Assembly: GCA_945861585.1 (NCBI GenBank)
Contig: CAMAVC010000001.1
Location: forward strand, 69,947 to 133,946
Direction of reading: 5' to 3'
DNA from: Planctomicrobium piriforme
GTDB lineage: Bacteria > Planctomycetota > Planctomycetia > Pirellulales > UBA1268
Length of the DNA: 64,000 nucleotides
Below the pieces are notes generated by a model. The model saw only the letters and a program-made list of their open reading frames with translations, was not told the DNA's origin and made no database searches. This document shows positions 45,975 to 49,600 of this stretch, one piece after another (position 1 is the first letter of the stretch; every line of letters begins with the position of its first letter). The position numbers and the translations under genes were made by a program.

Positions 45975-46796
45975 ATGACTCCAGACCCGATCGATGCCCA
46001 TGTGCTCCACGCTCAGGCTGGCATCGCTACGTTCGAGCATCTCGACGAGGTCGAGACGACGATGGACCGGGCGCGGGCCCTGGCCGCCGACCCGCCGACC
46101 CCGTTGCCAGCCCTCGTGGTCGCCGATCGGCAGGTGCGCGGACGCGGCCGGCGCGGCGCCCGCTGGTGGCAGCCTGATGGGGCGCTCGTGGCGAGCCTCG
46201 TCCTCGACGCCGGAGTCGTGGCGGGCAGCCCGATCCGCCCTGCCTGGTCGCTCGCCTGCGGAGTGGCGCTCGCCGAGGCGATCGGCAGTGTCGAGCCCGG
46301 GCTCGCGCCGCGCGTGCGCTGGCCCAACGACATCGAGATCGAAGGTGGAAAACTCGCGGGGATTCTCGTGGAGACGGTGCCGGATGGTCGTGTGATCTTC
46401 GGCTTTGGCGTCAATACGACCGGCTCCGCAGCCGCTGCGCCGGCGGGGATCGGCCGGCGGATCGCCACGGTGCCCGACCTCATCGGCCGGCCACTGCCAC
46501 GCGAGAGCGTGCTCGTGGCATTCGTGCCCCGGCTCGTCAGGCTGCTTGCGGGCATGGCTGTCGACGACGGCCTGCTCGCCGCTCGCTATCGGCCGCTCTG
46601 CGCCCTCACCGGCCAGGATGTCACCGTGTATCGGGGCCTGGGAGCGGGCGTTGTCGGCGACACCGTGCATGGGCCCTGCCTCGGCATCGATCGCTCCGGC
46701 GCCCTCGTGCTCGACACGGTCGTCGGACGGTTGCACGTCGAGTCGGGCAGCCTCAGCGACCCGGCGGCCGCGTGGCACGGGGAGGCGGGCGCCTGA
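45975..46796 (+). CDS. birA: Biotin--[acetyl-CoA-carboxylase] ligase
   Basis: FEHLDEVETTMDRARAL; VVADRQVRGRGRRGARWWQPDGALVASLVL; VRWPNDIEIEGGKLAGILVET. Confidence 0.88.
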   Translation: MTPDPIDAHVLHAQAGIATFEHLDEVETTMDRARALAADPPTPLPALVVADRQVRGRGRRGARWWQPDGALVASLVLDAGVVAGSPIRPAWSLACGVALAEAIGSVEPGLAPRVRWPNDIEIEGGKLAGILVETVPDGRVIFGFGVNTTGSAAAAPAGIGRRIATVPDLIGRPLPRESVLVAFVPRLVRLLAGMAVDDGLLAARYRPLCALTGQDVTVYRGLGAGVVGDTVHGPCLGIDRSGALVLDTVVGRLHVESGSLSDPAAAWHGEAGA

Positions 46797-47838
46797 CCGC
46801 TGTTCGCTCGGCGACGACGCAGATTTCCCGGCCCCCGGTCGACAGTTGGCGGGCCCGGGTCGTATAGCCCCAGCCGGTAAACCGCGCGAGCCACTCTGGC
46901 AGCTCGGCCGCCCGCGACCACGTGGGCAGCTTGAGCGTGGCGATGATGCCGCGGGGGGGCGTGCCGGGCGCTGACACAGCCCGCTCGATTGCGTCGAGCG
47001 TGCTCTTCGGGTCGATGTTCATGTCGGCCACCACCCAGTCGAATCCGCGAAACTGCCGGAGCTTCACGTCGCGGGCCCGCATCCGCCACTGCGTGAAGTT
47101 CGGATGTCGGGCGACCTCGTCATCGACGAGCGCCGGATCGATGCCCGTGACCATGAGGCCGGCTTCGAGGAGCCGCTGGCATGCACCGCCCGGTGCCGCG
47201 CCGAGCTCGACGGCCCGCTTGCCCGGCTCGAGGGCGAGGGCGAACGTCGCGATCGCCTCGTCGAGCTTCAGCCAGGCTCGCGACACTTTGCCGGCGGGCA
47301 GGCTGTGGGGATAGATGCCGCCCGGCCAGGTGCCAGCCGGCGTGTCGGCCACGTGCCAGCCCACCCACCAGCGGTCGGGGCCGTCGATCGCGCAGTCGAG
47401 CACGAGCGCACCGAGCCGAGTGGGTGCTGCGACGGCCGGCACGAGACCGCGACGATCCGGATCGAGACCGGCCACGAGCGCCGTGCGGATTGCGGCAGGA
47501 TCACCCTCCACGCGCGGCTCGCGCAGCCAGACGTGGATGTCGTCCCACGCATATGCGCCGGCGAGGTCATGAAGTGAGCGCACGAGTTGTGCGACGTCGT
47601 TGCCCGTCACTTGGCCGCACGAATGGACCACGGTGCGGGCGAACACGAGCCCGTCACGGTCGTTCGGAGTCAGCGCCGCGCCCCCGGCCGGCACCCGGAA
47701 CGTCAGCACACCCCGCCGCCAGGCTCCGCGGGCCAGGTCGGGCCGCACCGCCTGCTGCCGCGCGGCGAGGGCCGGTTCGGCACCCCCCTGGCAGGTGGCG
47801 AGCAAAAAGTCGCCGACGGGCGGGAGGATGGCAGCCAT
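46753..47838 (-). CDS. SAM-dependent RNA methyltransferase (FtsJ/RlmM-like)
   Basis: GGIYPHSLPAGKVSRAWLKLDEAIATF; AVELGAAPGGACQRLLEAGLMVTGIDPA; DWVVADMNIDP; FtsJ-type fold pattern. Confidence 0.75.
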   Translation of the reverse strand: MAAILPPVGDFLLATCQGGAEPALAARQQAVRPDLARGAWRRGVLTFRVPAGGAALTPNDRDGLVFARTVVHSCGQVTGNDVAQLVRSLHDLAGAYAWDDIHVWLREPRVEGDPAAIRTALVAGLDPDRRGLVPAVAAPTRLGALVLDCAIDGPDRWWVGWHVADTPAGTWPGGIYPHSLPAGKVSRAWLKLDEAIATFALALEPGKRAVELGAAPGGACQRLLEAGLMVTGIDPALVDDEVARHPNFTQWRMRARDVKLRQFRGFDWVVADMNIDPKSTLDAIERAVSAPGTPPRGIIATLKLPTWSRAAELPEWLARFTGWGYTTRARQLSTGGREICVVAERTAVRRPPPRATRPPGR

Positions 47839-47890
47839 GCCCGAGATGGTAGAGGGCTTTTCGTACGGCGACAGCCACCCTCAAAAAATC

Positions 47891-47926
47891 AGGCCGGCCC
47901 GGGCGCCCAAGGGCCCGGGCCGGCCT
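47891..47926 (-). terminator. Strong rho-independent terminator (14-bp perfect GC stem, 8-nt loop; T-tract on minus strand)
   Basis: AGGCCGGCCCGGGC-GCCCAAGG-GCCCGGGCCGGCCT; on the minus strand followed by GATTTTTTGA. Confidence 0.85.
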
Positions 47927-48036
47927 TTCTCGTCTGAACAGTCGACGGTTGTACGGTCGACGTGCCCGGCCGGCTGTTCGTCAGTCCGTCAGTCCCGAAG
48001 GCATGGCGGATCAACGAGGCAGGCACGGGCGAAGGA

Positions 48037-48099
48037 CTAGCCGTGGCCCTTCTTCTTCTTGGCAACCTTCTTGGCAGCCTTCTTCTTCTTCTTCGCCAT
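48037..48099 (-). CDS. 20-aa lysine-rich peptide MAKKKKKAAKKVAKKKKGHG
   Basis: ATG preceded by AAGGAG at about 8 nt; TAG stop; promoter-like and terminator elements flank it. Confidence 0.6.
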   Translation of the reverse strand: MAKKKKKAAKKVAKKKKGHG

Positions 48100-48250
48100 C
48101 GATATGGCTCCTTGCCACGAGCGCCCTGACACACACCACACGCCCGATCCCCCGGGCACTCTGTCGAAGGGATCGGACGACGATTCGAAATTTGTTTTGG
48201 TGAGGCTCTGCGAAGCGTTCCGCCCTGCTGTCGCAGCATCACTGGCAGTG

Positions 48251-48279
48251 TTTTGAGTGATTCCGCCAGAAACTGTCAA
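48251..48279 (-). promoter_or_regulatory. Sigma-70-like promoter (TTGACA, 17-nt spacer, TCAAAA) for the Lys-rich small gene
   Basis: Minus-strand TTGACA at 48279-48274, 17 nt, TCAAAA at 48256-48251; immediately upstream an AT-rich tract (48283-48312) unusual for this GC-rich window. Confidence 0.5.
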
Positions 48280-48282
48280 GAG

Positions 48283-48312
48283 AAATCCAGAAAAATTTTT
48301 CCGGATTTTTTT
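48283..48312 (-). terminator. AT-rich hairpin AAATCCAGAAAAA/TTTTTCCGGATTT plus T-tract; possible ino1 terminator and/or UP element
   Basis: 13-bp near-perfect inverted repeat with no real loop; located between ino1 3' end (minus) and the Lys-rich gene promoter. Confidence 0.5.
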
Positions 48313-48391: not shown

Positions 48392-49600
48392 TCAGTGGTG
48401 GTCTGCGTGCGTGCGTGCCCAGGCCTCGAGAGCGGCGAATTGCACGGAGAACTCCTGCTCGGTGACACCGAGTGGACTCTTGAAGAAACAGGCGAGCCAC
48501 TCGAGCACGCCGCATTCACCCGCGCGGTGGGCGCGTTCGACGAGCCGCACGAGGTCGATCACCAGTGGTGCCGCCAGAATCGAGTCGCATCCCTGCCAGA
48601 TGAACTGGAACGTCATGGGCGTGCCGAGGAACCCACGGAAGTGGACGTGGTCCCACGCCGTCTTCCAGTCGCCGAGGCTCTGGATGTATTCGATCGACAC
48701 GTGGGTCTGGGGTGGATAGCCGAGGATCGCGGCCAGCAGGTGATCCTTGCTCTTGACCTTCGCGGCCTTGTTGCGTGGATCGTCGAGCACCTTGCCGTCC
48801 ATGTTGCCGAAGATGTTGTGGCCGACCCAGCTCATGACGTCGAGATTGCGGGCCGCGAACATCGGGGCCAATACGCTCTTGAGGAGCGTCTCGCCCGTCT
48901 TGCCGTCGCAGCCGGCATGGGCCGTCTTGTGGTCGCGGGCGAACTGCCGGATGGCCTCCGGCGTGGACCCGGTCGAAGGCGTGAAATTCACGTATGACGC
49001 CCCGGCCTCGATCGCCGCCAGGGCATACAGGCTGCTCGCCGGCAGGGGGCACGCCGCGGCATTGTCGAGCAGTGGCTCGAGCTCCGCCCATCCCGGCGGG
49101 ATCGGGCGGGCTGCGGGCGGCTCGGTCGAGGCGAGGTTGACGACCACGACATGCCCCACGTCCGTAGCGCGGGCGAAGGCTTCGATGTCGGCCCGCACCC
49201 GCGCGATCGCCGCTCGCGGCGTCTCGGCCAGTGCCACGAGCGCCGGGTCGGCAAGCTCGCAGATCTTGTCGCCCGCCGCCACGACGGTGCCCGGCCGCAG
49301 CCGCGCTTCGACGGCCTTGAAGAAAGGTTCGGCACTGGCGAGGAGTTCGGGATCGATCGCCCGGCTCTCCACCCACATGCGCCGCGCCTCGTCGCCGAGC
49401 CTGCCGGGCCGGATGTCGTGTCCGCCCACGACGATGTCGGCACATGGCACGAGCTCGAGCCGTGTGAACGGCTCGAGCTCGGTGACGAGTCCGGTCGAGG
49501 GGATCGCCCCGCGGGAGAGCGCCGCAAGGCCGGTCATCACCGTCGTCGCCACGCCACCTTTCGCGCCGATGATCCACAGACCGAGTGACGGGCGAGCCAT
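48392..49600 (-). CDS. ino1: myo-Inositol-1-phosphate synthase-like protein
   Basis: IIGAKGGVATTVMTGL; YVNFTPSTGS; HAGCDGKTGETLLKSVLAPMFAARNLDVMSWVGHNIFGNMDGKVLDDPRNKAAKVKSKD. Confidence 0.85.
   Translation of the reverse strand: MARPSLGLWIIGAKGGVATTVMTGLAALSRGAIPSTGLVTELEPFTRLELVPCADIVVGGHDIRPGRLGDEARRMWVESRAIDPELLASAEPFFKAVEARLRPGTVVAAGDKICELADPALVALAETPRAAIARVRADIEAFARATDVGHVVVVNLASTEPPAARPIPPGWAELEPLLDNAAACPLPASSLYALAAIEAGASYVNFTPSTGSTPEAIRQFARDHKTAHAGCDGKTGETLLKSVLAPMFAARNLDVMSWVGHNIFGNMDGKVLDDPRNKAAKVKSKDHLLAAILGYPPQTHVSIEYIQSLGDWKTAWDHVHFRGFLGTPMTFQFIWQGCDSILAAPLVIDLVRLVERAHRAGECGVLEWLACFFKSPLGVTEQEFSVQFAALEAWARTHADHH

Follow-up and report, generated by a model that had tools for sequence, protein, structure and literature searches.

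Does a lysine-rich open reading frame (ORF) of 20 codons in the window, that is, the whole 64-kb stretch of DNA that was analysed, represent a gene in its own right, and if so, what might its peptide and the RNA preceding it do? The original prediction described a complete miniature transcription unit on the minus strand, and each of its elements was located in place, within a single-copy unit at 47883-48312 (minus strand) with a leader of about 145 nt (Table 1). No tRNA, tmRNA or Rfam family was found in the 64-kb window.

Table 1. Elements of the micro-ORF locus and its neighbours, in window positions.
Feature	Position	Strand	Remarks
A/T-rich tract, UP-element-like	48283..48312	-	Adjoins the -35 on its upstream side; in nearly all family loci with the same promoter
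-35 element TTGACA	48274..48279	-	Conserved in the form CTTGACAGTTTTC
-10-like TCAAAA	48251..48256	-	Weak; 17-nt spacer from the -35
Pseudoknot P1, 5' strand	48169..48179	-	94.1% of P1 cells paired; both-side changes in 7/11 pairs
Pseudoknot P1, 3' strand	48141..48151	-	Covariation
Pseudoknot P2, 5' strand	48154..48161	-	Inside the P1 loop; 99.6% of P2 cells paired
Pseudoknot P2, 3' strand	48119..48126	-	Ends 5 nt before the SD
Shine-Dalgarno (SD) AAGGAG	48108..48113	-	AAGGAGCCA nearly invariant
20-aa ORF MAKKKKKAAKKVAKKKKGHG	48037..48099	-	ATG at 48099, TAG to 48037; short ortholog of an H1-like protein made of Lys/Ala repeats
Terminator CAGACGAGAAAGGCCGGCCCGGGCCCTTGGGCGCCCGGGCCGGCCTGATTTTTT	47883..47936	-	42-nt core almost invariant in the family
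GC hairpin of terminator	47926-47891	-	14 bp, then TTTTTT
ino1 (myo-inositol-1-phosphate synthase)	48392..49600	-	Upstream syntenic neighbour; named from reading the sequence; start inside a longer ORF
SAM-dependent (rRNA 2'-O-)methyltransferase-like gene	46753..47838	-	Downstream syntenic neighbour in the family; named from reading the sequence

Searches of relatives with the 20-mer identified matches in 9 of 59 genomes at E<=0.001 (including the window's own), all 100% identical, and in 17 of 59 at E<=1, all within the window's own family, and the promoter, SD and terminator were conserved together with the micro-ORF. ORF lengths in the family differ by whole codons (18, 19, 20, 21, 22, 23, 24, 25 and 27 aa); also identified were longer forms of 48-57 aa (loci L035, L052, L053 and L061) and of 53-65 aa in the complete loci of genus g3, with the start MAKKK kept throughout these family ORFs except for MAKRK in L108. 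Among distinct 20-codon genes pN was 0.064, a value inflated by variants with a shifted AA pair, and pS was 0.246 (pN/pS about 0.26). The ORF is coding, its frame being kept through in-frame insertions and deletions. Neither of the outcomes named beforehand as refuting a gene, frameshifts or conservation of the RNA without the codons, was seen in relatives, and the proposal of a standalone gene gains support at the protein level. A fortuitous intergenic ORF accompanied by promoter-like noise would agree with a generic promoter scan that found no promoter at the locus, and with the ease with which low-complexity AAG repeats arise, but is refuted by the order-wide conservation with the same leader and synteny described below, leaving it a negligible probability.

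Beyond the family, a K-rich ORF lies directly 3' of the leader motif in 24/24 non-family loci and true distant matches to R1, a covariance model of the leader. In other families of the order these ORFs encode proteins of 28-113 aa with AAKK, STKKK and SPKKK repeats ((S/T)PKK), which are H1-tail-like and syntenic where the neighbourhood is readable, in agreement with the predicted resemblance of the peptide to H1/HC-type Lys/Ala tails. In family f12 a partial match to R1 (L125) is followed by a K-rich ORF of 28 aa. By its size and charge, R. baltica RB6849 (101 aa, pI 12.8), listed in a stress-response table (PMC2754498), is a candidate ortholog. The R1 matches L123 and L124 lack a K-rich ORF and were judged false. 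At one locus (L132, genome G158) an in-frame TAG follows 15 codons of the H1-like ORF with K-rich coding continuing beyond it, which may reflect a pseudogene, an error or readthrough.

In most of the family the gene order is aminotransferase - ino1 - peptide gene - methyltransferase - biotin-ligase-like gene, with ino1 absent at some family loci. The ino1 gene and/or the aminotransferase also lie upstream of the gene in families f7, f15, f16 and f19; in the sequence compared around the gene from f2, f4, f9 and f20, none of these neighbours was matched. Because the long-form genes share the leader and, where readable, the neighbours, we regard the 20-mer as a short ortholog of the H1-like protein, an assignment drawn from leader and gene order rather than from residue alignment. 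The short form, 18-27 aa in most of the family, originated in an order dominated by longer forms. Concerning the direction of length change inside the family, the ino1 tree places a long-form genus at the base, and the combined aminotransferase and methyltransferase tree nests long forms among short ones; since the neighbour trees disagree, the long forms of the family may be ancestral or re-expanded, with shortening followed by later re-expansion being one conceivable course. A second Lys/Ala protein was not found in the window's own genome by a search run without a positive control.

Examination of the leader revealed an H-type pseudoknot, in which P1 comprises 11 bp and P2, of 8 bp, joins the P1 loop to a segment shortly before the SD. 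Across 31 distinct leaders, pairing was possible in 96.4% of cells and 11 of 19 pairs had changed on both sides, a level of covariation matched by 0 of 500 shuffles; sliding the partner by one column reduced pairing to 36-51%. Both-side changes affect 4 of the 8 P2 pairs in the family. In an order-wide alignment P2 alone is paired in 85.7% of cells and 6 of 8 pairs have changed on both sides, giving variants such as GUGCCC/GGGCAC, GCGCCC/GGGCGC, GCACCC/GGGUGC, GUACCC/GGGUAC, GUGUCC/GGACAC and ACACCC/GGGUGU. One-sequence tests gave a pseudoknot stronger than at least 59 of 60 shuffles in 53 of 73 distinct leaders, and folding the complete transcript as a single sequence, with pseudoknots disallowed, recovered P1 and the terminator, with a stability exceeding that of 100 shuffles (z = -3.3). 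Across the order invariance is confined to CC..G, G, the SD and the start, the stems being kept while loops and linkers vary, and for this reason no protein recognition site stands out. At 48109-48095, the nearly invariant GCCA..UGGC could form a small hairpin containing the start codon; given this near-invariance across families, covariation neither supports nor rejects such a hairpin.

Several small riboswitches share this arrangement of an H-type pseudoknot abutting the SD, and the leader might on this ground be a metabolite-sensing element, its pseudoknot binding a small molecule (as in preQ1 and SAM-II) to control the basic peptide gene. We consider this improbable: the variation of loops and linkers across the order means that no ligand pocket stands out, the leader has no Rfam match, searches at gathering and relaxed thresholds yielding nothing above chance level, and there is always one gene downstream, never a metabolic one.

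The leader is shared by at least nine families of Pirellulales. R1 identified it in 64 of the family's 72 genomes, comprising 34/34 of those well assembled and 12/12 genera, with one leader per genome except in two, each of which has an additional copy at the end of a contig. Applied to a sample of 297 genomes of the order, a broader covariance model, R2, recovered the leader in 114, a count that does not establish absence within the order, as covariance-model filters lose weak matches. The R2 families were f1, f2, f4, f7, f9, f13, f15, f16, f19 and f20, of which nine, all but f13, had their matches inspected; f12, with its partial R1 match, is a tenth. Outside the order, under filters that likewise lose weak matches, no leader was detected at E<=0.01 among 398 genomes of the class or at E<=0.001 among 392 genomes of the phylum. 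Assemblies were also observed to break at or near the locus (G004 C21/C48, G021 C369/C294, L033/L045), perhaps at the perfect GC palindrome of the terminator, so that it is duplicated or split by contig ends. In addition, this Pirellulales-type locus and neighbourhood occur in several assemblies (L026, L031, L039, L043, L044 and others) whose titles, 'Candidatus Kuenenia stuttgartiensis' or 'Planctomicrobium piriforme', look mislabelled.

Upstream, the family shares the promoter pattern TTGACAGTTTTC-N7-ATCCNTCACAAC. Aligned family loci begin with CTTGACAGTTTTC-N7-ATCC-N-(T/C)CACAAC and proceed through a variable 5' part of the leader to its conserved core, followed by (A)AGGAGCCA, the ORF, a variable 3' UTR and the almost invariant terminator. 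The predicted -35, spacer and weak -10 stand, being conserved across the family, but the -10 is not a sigma-70 consensus: the corresponding element reads TCACAA or CCACAA in relatives and TTCAAT in other families. Loci of other families (L116-L121, L128, L131, L135, L138 and L140) possess a distinctive conserved promoter type, (C)TTGAC(G/T/A)-N17/18-TTCAAT-(G/T)CGCGC, with a GC-rich stretch (GCGCGC) 3' of the -10. The A/T tract of the window forms an inverted repeat, AAATCCGGAAAAATTTTTCTGGATTT, and was considered as a conserved palindromic operator; this was rejected, as inverted repeats were significant in just 15 of 40 loci and no conserved half-site was evident. The repeats at these 15 loci differ in sequence from one another.

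At the 3' end, the family terminators align as AGACGAGAAAG(G/A)CCGGCCCGGGCCCTTGGGCGCCCGGGCCGG. The terminator string alone matched 50 contig stretches in other planctomycete assemblies, many of them lake-derived by their isolate names, with a K-rich ORF upstream wherever the contig extends far enough. That the terminator is a genome-wide repeat was rejected, one copy being present in its own genome. Together with its upstream ACGAGAAAG flank (window 47895-47934, minus strand; L026-L075) it is near-identical across genera, beyond the needs of termination, and other families retain ACGAGA(A/C)AGGCCGG in part. The element may have a role beyond termination as a 3' RNA element. A further proposal is that of a dual-function or sRNA-like transcript whose main functional product is the RNA, especially this 3' element. 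The 42-nt core, which hardly differs between genera and occurs once in the genome, and the partial retention of ACGAGA(A/C)AGGCCGG in other families argue for it; set against them are the coding constraint on an ORF that expands to H1-like proteins elsewhere and the variable region between stop codon and terminator, and we judge this proposal distinctly unlikely. The earlier suggestion that the leader could be the functional RNA gains support, as the leader is a covarying pseudoknot, but not as an either/or: because the ORF is also conserved as a protein, leader RNA and peptide gene are not alternatives.

Taken together, the locus is probably an autonomous single-copy gene encoding a short H1-like nucleic-acid-binding peptide, with translation set by the leader pseudoknot, perhaps through feedback. 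Under this model, the conserved promoter would drive a short, strongly transcribed mRNA, which the conserved GC terminator would end, and the pseudoknot, whose second stem stops 5 nt short of the SD, would set translation as in known cases. Excess basic protein might then bind its own leader and block ribosome loading. The peptide, with 11 lysines in 20 residues, would be expected to be disordered, and could neutralise and condense DNA, or coat RNA or other polyanions; its target may be ribosomes, RNA or polyphosphate instead of the nucleoid.

A ribosomal target raises the further reading of a small, lineage-specific, ribosome-associated basic peptide (like bTHX, bS22 or bL37) preceded by an autoregulatory pseudoknot leader of the r-protein type. 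Such a peptide would suit a gene that is short, basic and standalone, and the GCGCGC that follows the -10 in promoters of other families, a stretch typical of growth-rate-controlled promoters. A pseudoknot upstream of the SD likewise recalls the rpsO leaders of Escherichia coli and Mycobacterium (PMC8470358). The protein, however, spans a roughly sixfold range of lengths (18-113 aa) with free change in repeat number, whereas r-proteins occupy a fixed pocket, and its (S/T)PKK and AAKK repeats are hallmarks of H1 tails; we rate the ribosomal reading as unlikely. Returning to the H1-like reading, its most far-reaching form would combine a new cis-regulatory RNA family confined to Pirellulales, an H1-like protein that limits its own translation, and a freshwater form of ~20 residues that keeps a chromatin or RNA job, a combination that we propose tentatively, as somewhat short of probable. 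If true, a self-limiting H1-like protein reduced to ~20 residues would be among the smallest chromosome-associated proteins.

H1-like proteins are already known in bacteria, and the RNA element is the newest part of these results; no description of leader or protein was found in the open-access literature searched. The element contributes a strongly covarying structured RNA not represented in Rfam. The locus further shows that micro-ORFs of ~20 codons, a size class commonly discarded during annotation by pipelines, can have longer proteins as orthologs, and the series from 18 to 113 aa provides a natural experiment on the minimum length of an H1-like tail still kept by selection. The single-copy locus also offers a clean entry to planctomycete nucleoid compaction and regulation beyond HU; in Gemmata, no histone homologs and two HU-type proteins have been noted (PMC3440768).

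Comparison with known systems places the locus as follows. HU (PF00216), a DNA-binding nucleoid protein, is likewise small and basic, but has no fold or sequence relation to the peptide, which lacks a PF00216 match; two HU-family genes occur elsewhere in the same genome (G000 C66:6683-6949 and C150:354-647). In SAM-II and preQ1 riboswitches the 3' strand of the pseudoknot likewise adjoins the SD, but the present leader has no conserved ligand-binding loop and, even at a relaxed threshold, no Rfam match, with no covariance-model match above a gathering score. Closer in layout is the S15 operator of rpsO, also an H-type pseudoknot in the 5' UTR near the SD of a gene for a small basic nucleic-acid-binding protein; in E. 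coli and Mycobacterium, basic S15 acts through this pseudoknot and blocks productive initiation (PMC8470358). A pseudoknot adjoining the SD, here supported by covariation, is common to both, although gene and organism are unrelated, the present leader has no Rfam match, and P1 and P2 lie here entirely upstream of the SD. For the protein, no Pfam or NCBIfam match was found at E<=0.1, in searches whose HMMER bias correction disfavours low-complexity Lys/Ala sequences; our claim is that the peptide would work like bacterial H1-like proteins, and does not extend to formal family membership. The 20-mer and its orthologs (AAKK, SPKK, STKK) possess the low-complexity K/A(/P/S/T) repeats and high positive charge of this group, and repeat-number variation among close relatives is seen in the family (18-27, 48-57 and 53-65 aa), as in the nucleic-acid-binding H1-like tails of Hc2, where changes in repeat number give lengths of 165-237 aa (PMC2848022), and of AlgP, whose KPAA repeats likewise vary (PMC9239181). 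Short Lys/Ala-rich repeats are common to this locus and to chlamydial Hc1/Hc2, Bordetella BpH1 and the C-terminal tails of Pseudomonas AlgP/PhaF, whereas the gene described here is much shorter, carries no extra domain, and is distinguished by neighbours shared within the order and by a pseudoknot leader.
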